A stretch of DNA of 64,000 bases from Nitrospirota bacterium. Its GTDB lineage: Bacteria > Nitrospirota > Thermodesulfovibrionia > Thermodesulfovibrionales > Magnetobacteriaceae. Below, one piece after another: positions 5,881 through 63,936 of the stretch (position 1 is the first letter of the stretch; each line of letters opens with the position of its first letter). The stretch spans positions 42,825-106,824 of the forward strand of contig JADFXJ010000001.1 of assembly GCA_015233615.1 (NCBI GenBank), written 5' to 3'. The position numbers were made by a program, and so were the translations under genes. The notes under the pieces were generated by a model. That model was given only the letters and a program-made list of their open reading frames with translations, was not told where the DNA came from and did not search any database.

Positions 5881-6342
5881 TACACCCCCACAATCGGCAT
5901 TATAAAAGGCATACCCGATATAACTCCGTCTAATGGATTTATGCTTAACGATGATTTTCTGTAACCCTTCATGCAACAATCCCTCCTGCTGTTTTTACTA
6001 ATCAGAACCGCTACTCATCAGATACCAATCAGAACCGCCTGGAATCAACATACATTACCGACAACGATGTCAATATTGTAACTATCCTATTCTAATGTAA
6101 CATAATCTGACGCGATGCTCAACTCTTTTGTTGTCCTTGCCCTTGCCCGGAATGACGAAGAAGGGAAGGGACAATATTGCGGCCCGCCAATACCACCGTC
6201 ACGGGGGGGGTAGGGGGAGGGCGGCAGACGGCTCTATCCGGCAGTGACGGCGGAGGGGAGAGGAGGGGAGAGGATTTTTTTTATTCTTATCCTCTTTTCC
6301 TTCATTTTGTTATATAATATAAATAAGAGGGGGTATTTAGTG

Positions 6343-7509
6343 ATGAAGGGGCTAAAAGATTGCACCCTGAATTGTCAATTGTCCCGAAGAACTTTCCTTC
6401 AGTTTTGTTCCGTTATTGCTGCAACGTTAGCTCTTCCCTCCGGCTCGGTGTCAAAAATAGCTGAAGCCATCGTAAATAAACAAAAACCTTATGTCGTTTG
6501 GCTGGAGTTTTCCGATTGTGCAGCCGACACGGAAGCTCTTCTCAGAGCGACGAATCCCGCGGTCGAAAACGTTCTCCTCGACCTCATATCCATCGAGTAC
6601 CACGAAACCATTATGTCACCGTCCGGTGCCGGTGCCGAAAAATCTCTGACGGACGTAGTAAACCAGCATCGGGGTGAGTACCTGGCCATTGTCGAGGGGG
6701 CCATACCCACTGCAAACGCAGGTGTGTACTGTTGCGTAAGCGGCAAAACGGCACTTGAGCGAGCCCGCGAGGTATGCGGTAACGCCCGGGCTGTCATTGC
6801 AGTTGGCTCTTGTGCAAGCTTTGGCGGCCTGGCTGCTGCCGTGCCGAATCCAACCGCTGCGGTGGGCGTAAAGACGGCAGTTCCCCAGGCCAACGTGATT
6901 AATCTGCCAGGTTGTCCCGTCAACCCGATAAACCTGACGGCACTTCTTGTCCATTACCTGACGTTCGGGAGTTTCCCGGCCCTTGACAACCTGAGCCGTC
7001 CCCTCTTTGCATATGGCAAACGCATTCACGACAACTGCGAACGCCGTCCCCACTTCGACGCCGGGCAGTTCGTGAAACACTGGGGAGACGAAGGACATCG
7101 TCTCGGCTGGTGTCTCTACGAGATGGGATGTAAGGGGCCCCAGTCGTACATGAACTGTCCGACGGTTCGGTTCAATCAGGGGGTAAGCTGGCCCGTTATG
7201 TCAGGCCATCCATGTTTTGCCTGCGCCATGCCGGACAGTTGGGACGCTCTTGGGCCCATTTATTCGCGCCTGCCAAACGTAAAAGGGGCGGGACTCGAGG
7301 CGGCTGCCGATACATTAGGATTAACGCTCGTGACGGGTGCCGCCGCGGGAGCAGTCACCCACGCCGCCATTCGCTTACTGAAGTCAAAACGGGAAAAGCC
7401 CCGCCACGGCGAGCCGACGGTCGAAACGGATTATTATAAATCGAGCAGCACCTCCATCGAAAAAAAAGTTCACAGAAGAATTCACAAAAAAAGAGAGATT
7501 AATCCATGA
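6343..7509 (+). CDS. hyaA: [NiFe] hydrogenase small subunit with Tat signal
   Basis: Tat motif SRRTFLQFC; WLEFSDCAADTEALLR; GSCASFGG, NLPGCPVNPINLTA, CLYEMGCKGPQSYMNCPTVRFN; C-terminal TM segment. Confidence 0.93.
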   Translation: MKGLKDCTLNCQLSRRTFLQFCSVIAATLALPSGSVSKIAEAIVNKQKPYVVWLEFSDCAADTEALLRATNPAVENVLLDLISIEYHETIMSPSGAGAEKSLTDVVNQHRGEYLAIVEGAIPTANAGVYCCVSGKTALERAREVCGNARAVIAVGSCASFGGLAAAVPNPTAAVGVKTAVPQANVINLPGCPVNPINLTALLVHYLTFGSFPALDNLSRPLFAYGKRIHDNCERRPHFDAGQFVKHWGDEGHRLGWCLYEMGCKGPQSYMNCPTVRFNQGVSWPVMSGHPCFACAMPDSWDALGPIYSRLPNVKGAGLEAAADTLGLTLVTGAAAGAVTHAAIRLLKSKREKPRHGEPTVETDYYKSSSTSIEKKVHRRIHKKREINP

Positions 7510-19093: not shown

Positions 19094-20170
19094 TTAAAGA
19101 TTAAATCCTAATAATTTATTAGTGTACCAGTCAATGTTATTACTTTCTAAGGTTAGCTCTAATACTTTGATATATTCCTCGAAGTCATCACAGTTTACAA
19201 ATTCATTTTCTATAAATGAAATGATAGGCTCATTGTAATATGTAAATGCCTTATTATCTTTTAAAATAAAACTTATATACATCCAGAAAGCTTTAAACAT
19301 TTCTAAATCAGATTTAATAGAATTCCTACGACTCTGTATATAGTAGATATCTTCGTGAGACAACAATCCCATAAACTCAGGCGGCTCACCTTCTCCGTTT
19401 GCAACCTTTTGCATATTGTCATTAAACAATTTTATTTTCTTAGTGATATTATTCCAGGATGAGGATGGGTTACTAAATGAATCGATAATTATGTTTCCAA
19501 ATAAACCTTTAAGCAAGTCTTGCATAGAATCTTTCTCCCGTAGTATTTTTATATTCCCATCAAAATAATCCTCATTAGGATGTTTTAACTCTTTTTGCAG
19601 TAACGTGTTTTCTTGTAACTGTATACCACCACGCACTGGCCAGACATAACAATTACCCCGCTTATTATAGCCAGCTACATGACCAAACCACATACCGACA
19701 ATCAAGGCATGAGTTTTGGTAGAAGATGTAGTAGACGACCAATAATAATTTGATCTTGCTTTTATGAACCCTTGTTCGTTTAACCAGAGGTCTAAGAGCC
19801 CCTGTTCATCTTTAAAGGTTTTTGCTTCTAACGTATTTAGGAGGCTTGCAATTTCGTTTATATTTGGTAATCTCCACTCACCAACTTTAGAGCCATCCGA
19901 CAAGTCGCATTTTCCACTTTTAAAGCCATTTACAGCCTCAATAGCGCCGTACCAATCTTCCCAAAGACAATTAGCTTTCTTTAACCATATAAGACCCGTG
20001 AGATTGTCTGTTATAGTACCATTGTTATTATCGATAAATCTTGGGTTCGGCCAGGGGACTCCACATCGTAAATCACCATCCTGACCTGAATTATAACAAG
20101 AAATCAAATTTCCAAACTGATCCCAACATTCTATTTGCCCTGTTTGCTGGAGATTGACAGTGTTATTCAT
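19094..20170 (-). CDS. DUF1566 (Lcl C-terminal-like) domain protein
   Basis: NNGTITDNLTGLIWLKKANC...GEWRLPNINEIASLLN...YYWSSTT...VWPVRGG. Confidence 0.8.
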   Translation of the reverse strand: MNNTVNLQQTGQIECWDQFGNLISCYNSGQDGDLRCGVPWPNPRFIDNNNGTITDNLTGLIWLKKANCLWEDWYGAIEAVNGFKSGKCDLSDGSKVGEWRLPNINEIASLLNTLEAKTFKDEQGLLDLWLNEQGFIKARSNYYWSSTTSSTKTHALIVGMWFGHVAGYNKRGNCYVWPVRGGIQLQENTLLQKELKHPNEDYFDGNIKILREKDSMQDLLKGLFGNIIIDSFSNPSSSWNNITKKIKLFNDNMQKVANGEGEPPEFMGLLSHEDIYYIQSRRNSIKSDLEMFKAFWMYISFILKDNKAFTYYNEPIISFIENEFVNCDDFEEYIKVLELTLESNNIDWYTNKLLGFNL

Positions 20171-20387: not shown

Positions 20388-21449
20388 ATGAAGCAAAGCG
20401 AAGCAATACCCGAAAGTGGAGTACCCAAACGCGGCATACTTCAACGACTGAAAGAGGGCATCGTACTTGGTGCCGAGGGATACCTCTTCGAGTTAGAACG
20501 GCGCGGATACTTAAAGGCAGGCCCCTACGTGCCCGAGGTGGTGCTCGATTACCCCGAAGCAGTAAAGGAGCTTCACAGGGAGTTTTTACATGCAGGTTCC
20601 GAGGTAATGGTAGCCTTTACTTACTACGCCCATAGAGACAAGATGCGCGTCATAGGCAGAGAGGCAAACCTGGAGGAGCTTAACAGGCAGGCTTTGAGGC
20701 TCGCTATAGAAGTTGCAAACGAAGCTGCTAATAATGCCGCCCCTGAGGATGCCGCCCTCGTTGCCGGCAACTTGAGTAATACGTGGAAATATGACCCCGA
20801 CGATCACGAAGCCTCCGAAAAGATAGTCGCACCCATGTTTGAGGAGCAGGCCGCGTGGGCAAAGGAAGAAGGCGTGGACTTCATAATAGCCGAAACATTC
20901 AGCCACGTGGGAGAGGCCCTGATTGCACTGAAGGCCATCAAACAAACGGGCCTGCCTTCAATGGTTACATTCATTCCCATCTACGAGCGCTCCCTGGACG
21001 GCCACACCTGGGAGGACGCGTGTAAAATGCTCGAAGATAGCGGCGCAGACATCGTAGGACTGAACTGCGGCAGGGGCCCAAACACCATGAACGGGTTTCT
21101 GAGGTCATTAAGGAAAAAGGCAGGCTCCTACCTGGCCGCTCAACCGGTCGCTTACAGGACTACGGAAAAGCAGCCGTTTTTCCAGGCGCTAAAAGAACCG
21201 GGTTGCAAATGTGCCTTTCCTCTGGCTCTCGACCCATTCACACACACCAGGGATGAGATGGCGAAGTTCGCCATAGAAGCCAGGGAAATAGGCGTAAACT
21301 ATATAGGCATATGTTGCGGTGCCGCTCCTCACCACGTCAGGGCCATGGCCGAAGCACTCGGAAGAATAGTACCGGCAAGCAAGTACTCCAGTGATATGTC
21401 CATGCATCCGGTGATAGGCACCGGTAAGTCTCTTTGCAAAGAAGATTGA
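20388..21449 (+). CDS. Homocysteine S-methyltransferase family protein (betaine-homocysteine methyltransferase-like)
   Basis: FLHAGSEVMVAFTYYAHRDKM; GADIVGLNCGRGP; GVNYIGICCGAAPHHVRAMAE zinc-site motif. Confidence 0.88.
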   Translation: MKQSEAIPESGVPKRGILQRLKEGIVLGAEGYLFELERRGYLKAGPYVPEVVLDYPEAVKELHREFLHAGSEVMVAFTYYAHRDKMRVIGREANLEELNRQALRLAIEVANEAANNAAPEDAALVAGNLSNTWKYDPDDHEASEKIVAPMFEEQAAWAKEEGVDFIIAETFSHVGEALIALKAIKQTGLPSMVTFIPIYERSLDGHTWEDACKMLEDSGADIVGLNCGRGPNTMNGFLRSLRKKAGSYLAAQPVAYRTTEKQPFFQALKEPGCKCAFPLALDPFTHTRDEMAKFAIEAREIGVNYIGICCGAAPHHVRAMAEALGRIVPASKYSSDMSMHPVIGTGKSLCKED

Positions 21450-21467: not shown

Positions 21468-21635
21468 ATGGCGGTTGATTCCGTTTTCACACAAAGTCTG
21501 CCATGTGGTTCTTCCATACCTGCCGGTTACATCTGCACATGCAATTGTGTCCCTGTTTCGACTCCACGAACTACCAGTAGCACTTATTGTAGCTGTAATA
21601 GAGTCTGCACTTGCAATCTCATCCCTGTCTCGTGA
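21468..21635 (+). CDS. Cys-rich 55-aa peptide, candidate RiPP precursor
   Basis: MAVDSVFTQSLPCGSSIPAGYICTCNCVPVSTPRTTSSTYCSCNRVCTCNLIPVS*; 8 Cys, repeated CTCN..PVS; stop 7 nt before a radical SAM start. Confidence 0.6.
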   Translation: MAVDSVFTQSLPCGSSIPAGYICTCNCVPVSTPRTTSSTYCSCNRVCTCNLIPVS

Positions 21636-21642
21636 CCAATTT

Positions 21643-22588
21643 ATGGAAATCTTCGTATTAAGACACGGCGATAGGTTCATTCTTTATTCTCCTGTTAAGA
21701 GGCTTGCCTTCCTTACTAGCGATGCCGTGATAGAAGCGTTACAAACACGCATTTAAAGATCCGTCATTCAGCGAGTTTTTACCTGAAACAAGAGATATCA
21801 TTGCTTTTTTAGATGCGACTGGAATATTTGAGGATGCGTCGCCGCTGACCCCCTCTGTCCCTCTCTCCGAGAAATTTCTTCCGACGACAGCTACTCTGTT
21901 TCTCACTAACAGATGCAATCTAAGATGCGTTTACTGCTATGCATCGGGTGGTGAACGACCACCAATTACGATGCCCCGGGAAATTACGAGAAAAGCTGTC
22001 ACTTCTATCTTACGATCTACATTCCACGGTGGCGGCGAACCGACGCTTGCATGGAATATCATGAAACGAACTGTCGATTATTTCCGCGAATCAGCCATGA
22101 TAAGGGGTTTGACACCTTTGGTACATACTGCAACTAACGGCGTAATCCCTCAAGATAATCTCAATTGGATAATCGAGAACCTGACTTGTGCGAACATTTC
22201 TTTAGATGGACTTCCTGAAATTCAAAACGTCCAGCGTCCGACTGCCACAGGCGGCCCCAGCTTTGATGCAGTAAAGGCGACGATGTGTGCTATGGATGCT
22301 AAAAAGTTCAGTTACGGTGTGCGTGCAACGGTAACAAAGCAAAGCGTCACAGAAATGGGTAAATTTACATCTTATCTTGCTGACAATTTTTCTTGCCTGC
22401 AAAATCGAACAGTGGCCAAAATTGACTACTGTCAAAATTGCTTCTGTAAATATCATTGTGCCGGAGATTGCCTTACGCGAGCGACAGACGGGGTGCATTT
22501 GACAAATATCCTGGATACTGCTCGCTGCAGGATTAATCAAGACCTCACCCAGGATCAGATAATACAGAATCTTACCGATGTGTCTTAG
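21643..22588 (+). pseudogene. Radical SAM/SPASM peptide maturase, frameshifted and apparently internally deleted
   Basis: Frame 1 MEIFVLRHGDRFILYSPVKRLAFLTSDAVIEALQ then frame 2 ...TATLFLTNRCNLRCVYCYASGG...FHGGGEPT...YCQNCFCKYHCAGDC...LTQDQII; frame change at ~21735-21756. Confidence 0.75.
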
Positions 22589-22590
22589 AA

Positions 22591-22686
22591 ATGTGTAAGG
22601 GTTGCCAAATTACTGACGTAAACGAAAATGGCACAATTTGCTACACACCAATCGCTCAACCCGACAATCGGGTTATAGGGCTTTGA
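22591..22686 (+). CDS. 31-aa CxxC small ORF of the RiPP-like cassette
   Basis: MCKGCQITDVNENGTICYTPIAQPDNRVIGL*; begins 2 nt after radical SAM stop. Confidence 0.5.
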   Translation: MCKGCQITDVNENGTICYTPIAQPDNRVIGL

Positions 22687-22713: not shown

Positions 22714-23925
22714 TCAGTGGTGACTATTTAGAAACTCCCTGATGGTATGAATGACGTACTTGCACTCCTCTATGCCAAGGTCCTGGTGCACACCGATATG
22801 CAGACCGTTTTTACCTATGTATTCCGCTACGGGGAAACTGCCCGGCTCATATCCCAGGAAAGCAAAACCGACACACTGGGTTGGCATCGAGGAGAAAAGG
22901 TCTCTTGTATCTATCCCGTTTTCTTCAAGGTGGCCGACAAACTCGTTGCGGGTAAACCCTGCACCCTGTTTGATGATAACAGGCAGAGCATGGGGGCCGA
23001 TTTCTTCGTAGCTTTCCTTCCTGAAAGTGGTTAAATAGGAACCAAACCGTTGGAATTCCTCAAGCAGGTAGTACAGGTTAGCTCTTCTCTTTTTAAGGAT
23101 GTCATGGTATATTTCAAGGGCTCCGAGACCTACGGCCGCTTCCATCTCGTTCATCTTTGACGAAAACCCTATCCGCTCGAAAATAAACCTGATGTCTCCT
23201 TTGTCCTCATACTGGAATCGTTTGCTACAATGAGCCGAGGCGGTGTTTAAGACGCAGCTCTCGCATTTACATGCCCTGCCGTGGCTTCTCAGGGAACGGA
23301 GAATCTCGGCAAAGTCGGGATTATCGGTGGTCACTATGCCGCCCTCCACGGTTGTTATTATATGGGCAACGTAAAGGCTGTATGCCGCCATATGGCCAAG
23401 TATGCCTACGTTGCGTCCCTTGTATACGGCTCCGTGGGCTTCTGCGGCATCTTCGATTACATACAAGCCGTGTTTTTTGGCGATAGCGTTTATCGTGTCC
23501 ATCTCGGCCGGTTTGCCCATCAGGTGTACCGGCATGATAGCCCTGGTTTTTGGAGTGATTGCCGCTTCGATTTTCGACGGGTCTATGTTGAGCGTATCAA
23601 GCTCCACGTCAACGAACACAGGTATAAATCCGGCCTGGAGAACTGCATTGCCGGTTGCTACGAAAGACAATGCAGGCACTATTATCTCGTCGCCCCGCCC
23701 GGCACCGTAGTCGTAGAGTACGGCAAGGGCAAGTGCGTCGGCGTCCGTACCATTTGCTAAGGCGACCGCCTCTTTTGTACCCACAAGGGAGGCGAACTGT
23801 TTTTCGAAATCGCGCACGTATTTACCGCTGGAAAGACGCTTCCTATCGAGAGCGTCCATGATGAGCTGTTTGGCCTTTTCGGTAACGGCCATGGTGCCAA
23901 AGGGTATTTTAAATTTTCCTGCCAA
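22714..23925 (-). CDS. DegT/DnrJ/EryC1-fold PLP enzyme with His replacing the PLP Lys; probable sugar 3-dehydratase
   Basis: VIEDAAEAHGAVYKGRNVGILGHMAAYSLYVAHIITTVEGG; Cys cluster CKCESC...HCSKRF as in E1-like enzymes. Confidence 0.75.
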   Translation of the reverse strand: MAGKFKIPFGTMAVTEKAKQLIMDALDRKRLSSGKYVRDFEKQFASLVGTKEAVALANGTDADALALAVLYDYGAGRGDEIIVPALSFVATGNAVLQAGFIPVFVDVELDTLNIDPSKIEAAITPKTRAIMPVHLMGKPAEMDTINAIAKKHGLYVIEDAAEAHGAVYKGRNVGILGHMAAYSLYVAHIITTVEGGIVTTDNPDFAEILRSLRSHGRACKCESCVLNTASAHCSKRFQYEDKGDIRFIFERIGFSSKMNEMEAAVGLGALEIYHDILKKRRANLYYLLEEFQRFGSYLTTFRKESYEEIGPHALPVIIKQGAGFTRNEFVGHLEENGIDTRDLFSSMPTQCVGFAFLGYEPGSFPVAEYIGKNGLHIGVHQDLGIEECKYVIHTIREFLNSHH

Positions 23926-61743: not shown

Positions 61744-63936
61744 CTAAAACCGCCATTTATACCATTGTTCAAAAAACTTTGCACGAAAAAATAATCTGTT
61801 TTCCTCGCTATTAACCAGAGTGAATCTTTTCAGATTGGCCTTCGCTTCTAAAAGTTCTTTCGGAGTATTGCCCTCAGGATAGCCCTCATCTCCGGAGCTA
61901 ATAATTCGTTTAACCAATTCCTGTTCATCCGGTTTCATTTGATTCCATACCGATTCTTTGTAATGGTTTCCTATATCGTTTTCACTGAAAGTTTCTAAAA
62001 GCATGGAACACGTTTCTTCGACTCTTTTAATGGTGATTTCCTTTATTTTCCCCTTGTCTGAGGCAAAGCTTGCAAAGATTCTGGATACAAGTGGGTCGCC
62101 TCCCGTATATTCGAATATTATCTGCGGCCCTCCCTCGTCCCAGTGAATATCTTTCCAAAGCCCGATTTCTTTAATCATAGTTACAGTGTCATCAAGATTG
62201 AAATATCCGAGAAACTCCTCATAAAACGAATTATACATTGGGTTTTCACCAATAGTTTCCATAAGTATGTTTTGTCTGTTTATATCCGGTCGATAAGTAG
62301 CTACCACTGTTGTAAGCGAACGTCTCGTCTGGGCCAGGCCACGCAAAACGCTGAAGAGCTTAACATACTCGACCAGTGCATTTTCACTGCCCGTCTGTCT
62401 TCTGTCTTTAAATAATTTGTCTATCTCATCAAAAAAGATGATGACCTTCTCGTTTTGTCTTACTTTTTCCCATTTGTCGACAAAGTGTAAAAAAATATTT
62501 TCAAAAGTATCCTTATTTAACTCTGTAGGAATCACGGGTAGTTTCTTAATATGATGGGCATTAAGTTTATTGTGTAGTTGTATAAGTATTTCTCTAAAGT
62601 AACTTTCTGCCATATCCGTTTTTGTCTGGCAGTCGATAAAAACAATTGGTGCTTTGACAAAATGCTGAAGGAGTTGATTTACTAAAGATGTTTTCCCGAC
62701 TTTTCTAAGGCCGCAAAGACATACGTGCTGTCCCTGGGAAATCATGCGGGTGAGATTTTCTATGTTTTGTGCTCTTCCGTAAAACCATACGGGATCGCTA
62801 ATCGGTGTACGTTCGATGTATGGGTCCGTTCTTATCGTGTATGGTTCTTCAAGACGCAACAGATCCTCTTTACATTTAGGGCTCTCTATCGATTTCTCCA
62901 GAATCGACGAATAAAGAGGGATTATATCCATAGCCATGCCGTATTTGTTCCTTAATTCCTTAACGCCTTCATTTACGTTATGTTTATCTTCTTTATAAAT
63001 AAGATATATTTTGAGCCTTTCCTTTACTTTGTCTTTAATAGCTTCGCCGATATGTTTCATTCCTATGATTTTGCCGTCCTTCCAGAGGGATGCCATAACG
63101 GTGGATTGGATGTTTTGTTTATATAGAAGATAAAGCTCTTTGTTAATGTTGGTAATTTTTATAAAATCTGCTTTCGAAAAAAACTCTCTGGCTACGACTA
63201 TCGGATCAGATCGTCTTGACAGGAGGTAAACATAGATAGATGGCAATAGGATAAACGGAAAAACAAAGATACCCCATTTCCATTTATTACGGCTTGTATC
63301 CCGCCACAGCTTAAAACGCTTAGGTTCTATTGTCGGTTGTACGGCGTTAAATGCAGAAAATATATTATTTTGTTCAGTTTTCAGTTCTTTTCTGTAATAT
63401 TTTAGTGGATAAACTGGAAATGAATTATTATCGAATCTAACCGCCATATATTCGTCACCTTGTAAAGATGAATGATAAACAAGCTTTTTCTCATTAAAAG
63501 TTATCCATTCATTGCCGGGTAATAAAGCTGTTACGTAAATAGATTCGTTTTTATTGATATCCCAGATTCTGAAGGTGCTATCCCAACTTCCAGAAGCGAT
63601 AAACTTTCCGTCGGGGCTAAAGCTTACGCTGTATACAGAAGACGAATGTCCTGCAAGAGTGCGAAGAAGAGCACCAGTTTGCACGTCCCATACTTTTACG
63701 GTATTATCCCCACTTCCAGAAGCGATAAACTTTCCGTCGGGGCTAAAGCTTACGCTGGTTACATAAGACGAATGTCCTGCAAGAGTGCGAAGAAGAGCAC
63801 CAGTTTGCACGTCCCATACTTTTACGGTCTTATCCCCACTTCCAGAAGCGATAAACTTTCCGTCGGGGCTAAAGCTTACGCTGTATACAGAAGACGAATG
63901 TCCTGCAAGAGTGCGAAGAAGAGCACCAGTTTGCAC
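61744..63936 (-). CDS. WD40-repeat protein fused to TM segment and AAA/STAND ATPase (5' end beyond window)
   Basis: Repeats LRTLAGHSSSVYSVSFSPDGKFIASGSGDKTVKVWDVQTGA; TM FVFPFILLPSIYVYLLS; Walker A CGLRKVGKTSLVNQLL; Walker B VIIFFDEIDKLF. Frame runs to window edge. Confidence 0.9.
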   Translation of the reverse strand: MQTGALLRTLAGHSSSVYSVSFSPDGKFIASGSGDKTVKVWDVQTGALLRTLAGHSSYVTSVSFSPDGKFIASGSGDNTVKVWDVQTGALLRTLAGHSSSVYSVSFSPDGKFIASGSWDSTFRIWDINKNESIYVTALLPGNEWITFNEKKLVYHSSLQGDEYMAVRFDNNSFPVYPLKYYRKELKTEQNNIFSAFNAVQPTIEPKRFKLWRDTSRNKWKWGIFVFPFILLPSIYVYLLSRRSDPIVVAREFFSKADFIKITNINKELYLLYKQNIQSTVMASLWKDGKIIGMKHIGEAIKDKVKERLKIYLIYKEDKHNVNEGVKELRNKYGMAMDIIPLYSSILEKSIESPKCKEDLLRLEEPYTIRTDPYIERTPISDPVWFYGRAQNIENLTRMISQGQHVCLCGLRKVGKTSLVNQLLQHFVKAPIVFIDCQTKTDMAESYFREILIQLHNKLNAHHIKKLPVIPTELNKDTFENIFLHFVDKWEKVRQNEKVIIFFDEIDKLFKDRRQTGSENALVEYVKLFSVLRGLAQTRRSLTTVVATYRPDINRQNILMETIGENPMYNSFYEEFLGYFNLDDTVTMIKEIGLWKDIHWDEGGPQIIFEYTGGDPLVSRIFASFASDKGKIKEITIKRVEETCSMLLETFSENDIGNHYKESVWNQMKPDEQELVKRIISSGDEGYPEGNTPKELLEAKANLKRFTLVNSEENRLFFRAKFFEQWYKWRF

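Follow-up and report, generated by a model that had tools for sequence, protein, structure and literature searches.

Radical SAM maturases of cysteine-rich peptides are well known, and for the most part they yield free peptides of small size. Anaerobic sulfatase maturases make formylglycine from a single cysteine or serine. QhpD forms thioethers from cysteine to aspartate or glutamate in the gamma subunit of QHNDH, using an N-terminal leader and acting before export (PMC7876137). Here we describe a locus in a 64,000-nucleotide stretch of DNA from a Nitrospirota bacterium (the window) that is probably a decayed two-gene system, made up of a CteB-like radical SAM/SPASM maturase and its substrate, an exported protein with a tail rich in C-T-C-N/D motifs.

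Intact relatives of the window enzyme carry three core cysteines and seven further invariant ones, the pattern of radical SAM/SPASM enzymes. Among solved structures CteB came out nearest in a profile search (5wgg, E 2.3e-50), and a structural model of the enzyme of locus L026 (mean pLDDT 81.7) gave the CteB entries 5why and 5wgg as top matches by fold. With CteB/SCIFF and PapB (PDB 5wgg, 5why; TIGR03974, NF047865) the family shares the radical SAM and SPASM fold, an N-terminal extension and an adjacent cysteine-rich substrate. It differs from them in the CxC spacing of the cysteines, in having as substrate, in many cases, the tail of a large protein exported by Tat, and in a thioether chemistry that is here putative. 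PapB, nif11, SCIFF and QhpD-type maturases are its neighbours in NCBIfam and all lie far below their cutoffs, intact enzymes scoring 84-128 bits against a PapB cutoff of 340 and 92-119 bits against a SCIFF cutoff of 425. TIGR03906 (QhpD type), for which the cutoff is 453, gave 45-94 bits; the curated NCBIfam cutoff was reached for no thioether maturase model. QhpD, the parallel that has been studied best, resembles the present system in combining a radical SAM enzyme with an N-terminal substrate leader and a protein acting outside the cytoplasm. Its substrate, however, is a small subunit that loses its leader and then leaves through an ABC transporter, and it has neither a CxC tail nor a Tat signal. 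The enzymes of the CXXX-repeat (TIGR04115) and Cys-every-fifth (CefB, NF038107) models are also SPASM proteins, with substrate cysteines that to judge by the model names are regularly spaced, but the spacing here is CxC and the scores were again far below cutoff. Anaerobic sulfatase maturases (anSMEcpe, PDB 4k36-4k39) are SPASM enzymes that modify a protein cysteine and were the second-best solved relatives; they differ in the absence of a CxC tail, and the TIGR03942 score was below its cutoff.

Layout and decay of the window locus

The genome (G000) amounts to 4.0 Mb in 220 contigs and is 79.9% complete, the window lying in a contig of 107 kb (C170). The locus is flanked upstream by a homocysteine S-methyltransferase-like protein of 353 aa (20388-21449, plus strand; Pfam PF02574, E 9e-45) and downstream by a DegT/DnrJ/EryC1 aminotransferase (22714-23925, minus strand; Pfam PF01041, E 4e-98), both outside the system. 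Synteny of the methyltransferase within the family is uninformative, since just one further genome has a relative. Also in this part of the window is a 358-aa protein with an Lcl C-terminal domain (19094-20170, minus strand; PF07603, E 7e-21). Between the flanking genes all the elements that an earlier note had read from the sequence are present: a 55-aa ORF (21468-21635, plus strand), the start of a radical SAM frame at 21643, 7 nt past its stop, the CxxxCxxC core motif (NRCNLRCVYC), a cysteine-rich end (YCQNCFCKYHCAGDC) and a 31-aa ORF beginning MCKGC (22591-22686, plus strand). The spacing of 7 nt is like that of other substrate-then-enzyme junctions, with 9 nt at L132 and a 4-nt overlap at L108. 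The assignment of the enzyme to the radical SAM/SPASM family also held, but the gene does not encode one intact enzyme.

Three lesions interrupt it. An N-terminal fragment (21643-21756, plus strand; 33% identity to the intact L021 enzyme over residues 10-42 of the latter) ends at a stop codon at 21754-21756, and the remainder (21740-22588, plus strand), comprising the radical SAM core (Pfam PF04055, E 7e-12; up to 43% identity to intact enzymes across the core) and the last part of the SPASM region, lies in another frame. By homology the frame break falls between about 21741 and 21794. The second lesion is an exact 24-nt sequence inside the main fragment (21998-22021, plus strand) that has seven copies in the genome including that of the window, with 0 control matches. 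Most of the other copies are the end of a mobile element, with a conserved inner side and unrelated DNA outside, and one adjoins an IstA-like ORF with an rve domain, as would fit an element of the IS21 family. The outer side of the window copy runs straight into the FHGGGEP of the enzyme, and about 19 native residues that precede FHGGGEP in intact enzymes are replaced by eight element-end codons. The third lesion is the loss of about 116 residues near 22390 (junction at 22388-22400, plus strand), corresponding to residues 267-382 of the L021 enzyme as placed by alignment (A2) and by BLAST against L021, L024 and L026. This deletion took two of the seven invariant cysteines outside the core, those of the auxiliary clusters (invariance from alignment A4). 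A point against decay is that the reading frame stays open across two of the three lesions, an outcome that chance permits without requiring it. A 22/24 copy of the IS21-type end was also seen inside an hsdM-like ORF (L006, 1964-1987; G000:C122:26061-26084), a scar resembling that of the window enzyme; the recurrence of one element's end in coding sequences is unexplained.

If the assembly is right, the radical SAM gene of the window is a pseudogene. An assembly error may have arisen in a genome this fragmented and incomplete, and element ends are typical misassembly points. Yet the lesions are of three distinct kinds within 1 kb of a 107-kb contig and the missing parts of the enzyme were not found elsewhere in the genome, and we consider it very unlikely that they are artefacts hiding an intact locus. 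Searches of the same genome did not find a second maturase of this family, giving weak radical SAM matches only, or another tail, giving only a stop-ridden peptide match.

These observations also bear on the proposal of the earlier note that the 55-aa peptide, the enzyme and the 31-aa ORF form a compact working three-part RiPP cassette. In its favour, the three ORFs are near neighbours and CxC-rich products do accompany enzymes of this family, but the frame break, the element end and the large deletion rule out a working cassette unless the assembly is wrong, and the search of the genome gave no second maturase of the family. The 31-aa ORF is itself unsupported as a gene and did not hold up as a recurrent third part: it scored 0.3 bits against the leader profile, a value equalled or bettered by 157 of 3000 shuffles, and no relatives of it were found in related loci. 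It sits where the substrate gene of L026 starts and has the same 2-nt gap, so that its position would fit the leader of a second substrate; this candidate was rejected on the shuffle result and the lack of relatives. A working cassette is thus extremely improbable, and what the window holds is a pseudogene relic. We favour a history in which the enzyme would have been destroyed by a frameshift, a large deletion and a rearrangement related to IS21, the 5' part of the substrate gene also having been lost.

The CxC tail and its parent proteins

A tail profile from which the 55-aa ORF had been left out gave it 51.6 bits (E 7e-15), the maximum of 2000 shuffles being 9.8 bits, and no other match in a six-frame scan of the window was significant. 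Relatives were collected first via the enzyme and then via the tail. The ORF aligns with the C-termini of large proteins at L023, L026, L107, L108, L109, L121/L028, L132, L133, L135, L136, L138, L139, L151 and L153; L134 and L137 have one more domain after the tail, and the tail locus L152 is truncated by a contig end. These tails have in common a core that starts with PCGxPIPPGAxCTCNCVPG and continues through a variable linker to CTC(N/D)x(I/V)CTC, and the 55-aa ORF carries this core in the form PCGxxIPxGxICTCNCVP. Judged by this homology the 55-aa frame is coding in origin, as the remnant of a substrate gene. The earlier note had taken the 55-aa ORF for a whole peptide precursor; its homology is instead to the tail found at the C-terminus of large proteins exported by Tat.

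Tail proteins adjoin intact relatives of the radical SAM gene in the phylum of the window, Acidobacteriota, Armatimonadota and Chloroflexota. In nearly all cases examined the substrate is a WD40 propeller; an exception is a plasmid of Chlorohelix (NZ_CP128402.1), whose substrate is another protein with no Pfam domain. An intact substrate starts with a short conserved motif directly ahead of a twin-arginine signal, and after these come a folded domain (usually the propeller) and the tail. An RR motif of the twin-arginine type is present in all 15 of the N-termini examined and is preceded by a similar stretch, for example PEIYSLxxxxGxWxLSRRDF. The top background match of the leader profile was a twin-arginine-signal protein in the window that resembles a hydrogenase small subunit (6244-7509, plus strand). 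Substrates in the branch resembling the 55-aa ORF measure 280-1026 aa, and small free precursors occur in sister branches of CxC peptides. Structure modelling of the substrate from two sequences was too poor for interpretation.

The tails end in two ways, either CTCVPI-like or with HYW(Y/H)PN. Peptidase_S74 domains self-cleave just before a particular serine. Such a domain follows the tail in L134 (3718-6798) and L137 (4857-6647), and in L137, which was scanned for this, it begins exactly at the serine after CTCIPVP. By analogy, self-cleavage there would leave the usual kind of tail end.

Before the window tail the leader, the twin-arginine signal and the folded domain of intact relatives are absent, because the stop of the upstream gene, which is in frame with the 55-aa ORF, lies 18 nt ahead of it. 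The parent domain of the tail was also absent from the rest of the window, which counts against a decayed large substrate. A WD40-rich protein of 730 aa is encoded at 61744-63936 (minus strand) and has no CxC tail. The 55-aa ORF could alternatively be a natural free-standing peptide substrate, like those of L021, L024, L025, L027 and L030, of which the enzyme alone decayed. Peptide-type relatives are known from the taxonomic family of the window (G016), Actinomycetota, Chloroflexota and an archaeon, and the product of the one in the same family (L021) shares YCSCNxVCTC with the 55-aa ORF, which moreover has an ATG of its own. In the enzyme tree the WD40-associated enzymes group together (94/85), and the fragment from the window is placed among peptide-associated enzymes, in a part of the tree that is not resolved, and groups with no WD40 type. 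Against this, the PCGxxIPxGxICTCNCVP block occurs in the tails of large proteins and in none of the observed peptide-type products, no leader is left, and the ATG lacks a clear ribosome-binding site ahead of it. We regard a free-standing peptide as unlikely and retain the 55-aa ORF as the tail of a larger exported protein. TPR-like proteins were seen to follow peptide-type relatives (L021, 2322-5003; L027, 7863-10127; L030, 7703-8944), and L021 and L027 also have downstream a radical SAM enzyme that looks to be of the B12 type.

Pairing with the maturase and predicted modification

The central idea of the earlier note, that a SPASM radical SAM enzyme of no named class has a CxC-rich substrate encoded next to it, is supported, since CxC-rich products recur beside intact homologues of the enzyme. 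The note had named a lack of cysteine-rich ORFs at such homologues as a refuting condition, and the search for this did not refute the pairing. Every genuine tail locus with enough flanking sequence has an enzyme of the family within about 5 kb; two weak tail matches lacking the enzyme (G690, G538:C11) were set aside as chance on inspection. Tails are infrequent, being found in 3 of 399 genomes of the window's own phylum, in 10 of 396 Acidobacteriota (a count that includes two weak chance matches), in 2 of 399 Chloroflexota and in 3 of 292 Armatimonadota. A search with the tail alignment (A1) gave no relatives in viral contigs and a single plasmid record, that of Chlorohelix. In the reverse direction the enzyme profile (E<=1e-50) recovered nine genomes besides that of the window among 399 of its own phylum, and in eight of the nine a CxC-rich product is encoded next to the enzyme or in its vicinity. 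These products are WD40 tails in G202 and G320 and short CxC-rich ORFs in the other six (116-139 aa, one called as 203 aa). A CxC-rich product was not found near the more distant enzyme of G053. The short ORFs of L157-L161 carry CSC(E/Q)xKP-like repeats, and ORFs of this kind are a separate substrate class. They were observed at L157 (112-480), L159 (565-933 and 1046-1396), L160 (2939-3292) and L161 (2914-3282), with further CxC-rich ORFs at L155 (975-1394) and L158 (788-1399). All lie upstream of the same kind of radical SAM gene, in two other families of the phylum, and most combine the repeats with a conserved C-terminal part.

From the pairing and the nearest solved relatives, the enzyme probably cross-links the cysteine-rich tail of the exported protein. 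As a first step, the N-terminal domain of the maturase would bind the N-terminal leader ahead of the Tat signal in the cytoplasm. Radical chemistry would then join tail cysteines to neighbouring residues by thioether bonds, and the folded, cross-linked protein would finally be exported via Tat. The leader recognition, the chemistry, the order of the steps and the biological role are all inferred; the pairing, the tail, the RR-containing leader, the SPASM cysteines and the lesions of the window copy are read from the sequences themselves. A consideration on the other side is that CxC could be a metal site. The enzyme might accordingly act on the tail without forming thioethers, through other radical chemistry or by helping to mature a metal- or cluster-binding CxC tail. 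The CxC repeats do look like metal-binding sequences, the next nearest solved relatives, the anaerobic sulfatase maturases, have another chemistry, and loci with YWYPN tails often hold additional radical SAM genes. The nearest solved relative is however the thioether-forming CteB, and the best NCBIfam neighbours (PapB, SCIFF and nif11) mature cysteine-rich peptides, though the scores for these were far below cutoff. We find a tail modified in some other manner somewhat unlikely and keep to thioether cross-linking as the proposed activity.

Neither the tail nor the CxC peptides that were scanned are covered by a Pfam or NCBIfam model, and a literature search, with subscription journals mostly outside its scope, found no description of the system. 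One paper mentioning propellers and radical SAM (PMC7159879) was set aside since it concerns NTP-dependent conflict systems. The intact copies in other bacteria appear to represent a widespread and undescribed system, in which a SPASM radical SAM enzyme would mature a substrate that is a modular protein tail, and of which the window copy would be a fossil. In a broader proposal that we advance only tentatively, this is a protein-embedded RiPP-like modification found across phyla, where the maturase reads the leader ahead of the Tat signal and cross-links a CxC tail kept on an exported WD40 or other domain, the folded product is exported by Tat, and some tails may be freed by S74 domains. If large propellers exported by Tat recurrently carry a portable, modified tail, radical SAM chemistry would reach into the architecture of exported proteins. 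It would also suggest a simple rule, with the leader ahead of the Tat signal and the core at the opposite end of the protein, and would supply small co-expressible pairs for studying maturase action when a folded domain lies in between. One cluster, at L151 (5851-12398, minus strand), contains four tandem WD40-type proteins with CxC tails, together with a member of the maturase family and a 662-aa protein resembling a further radical SAM enzyme.
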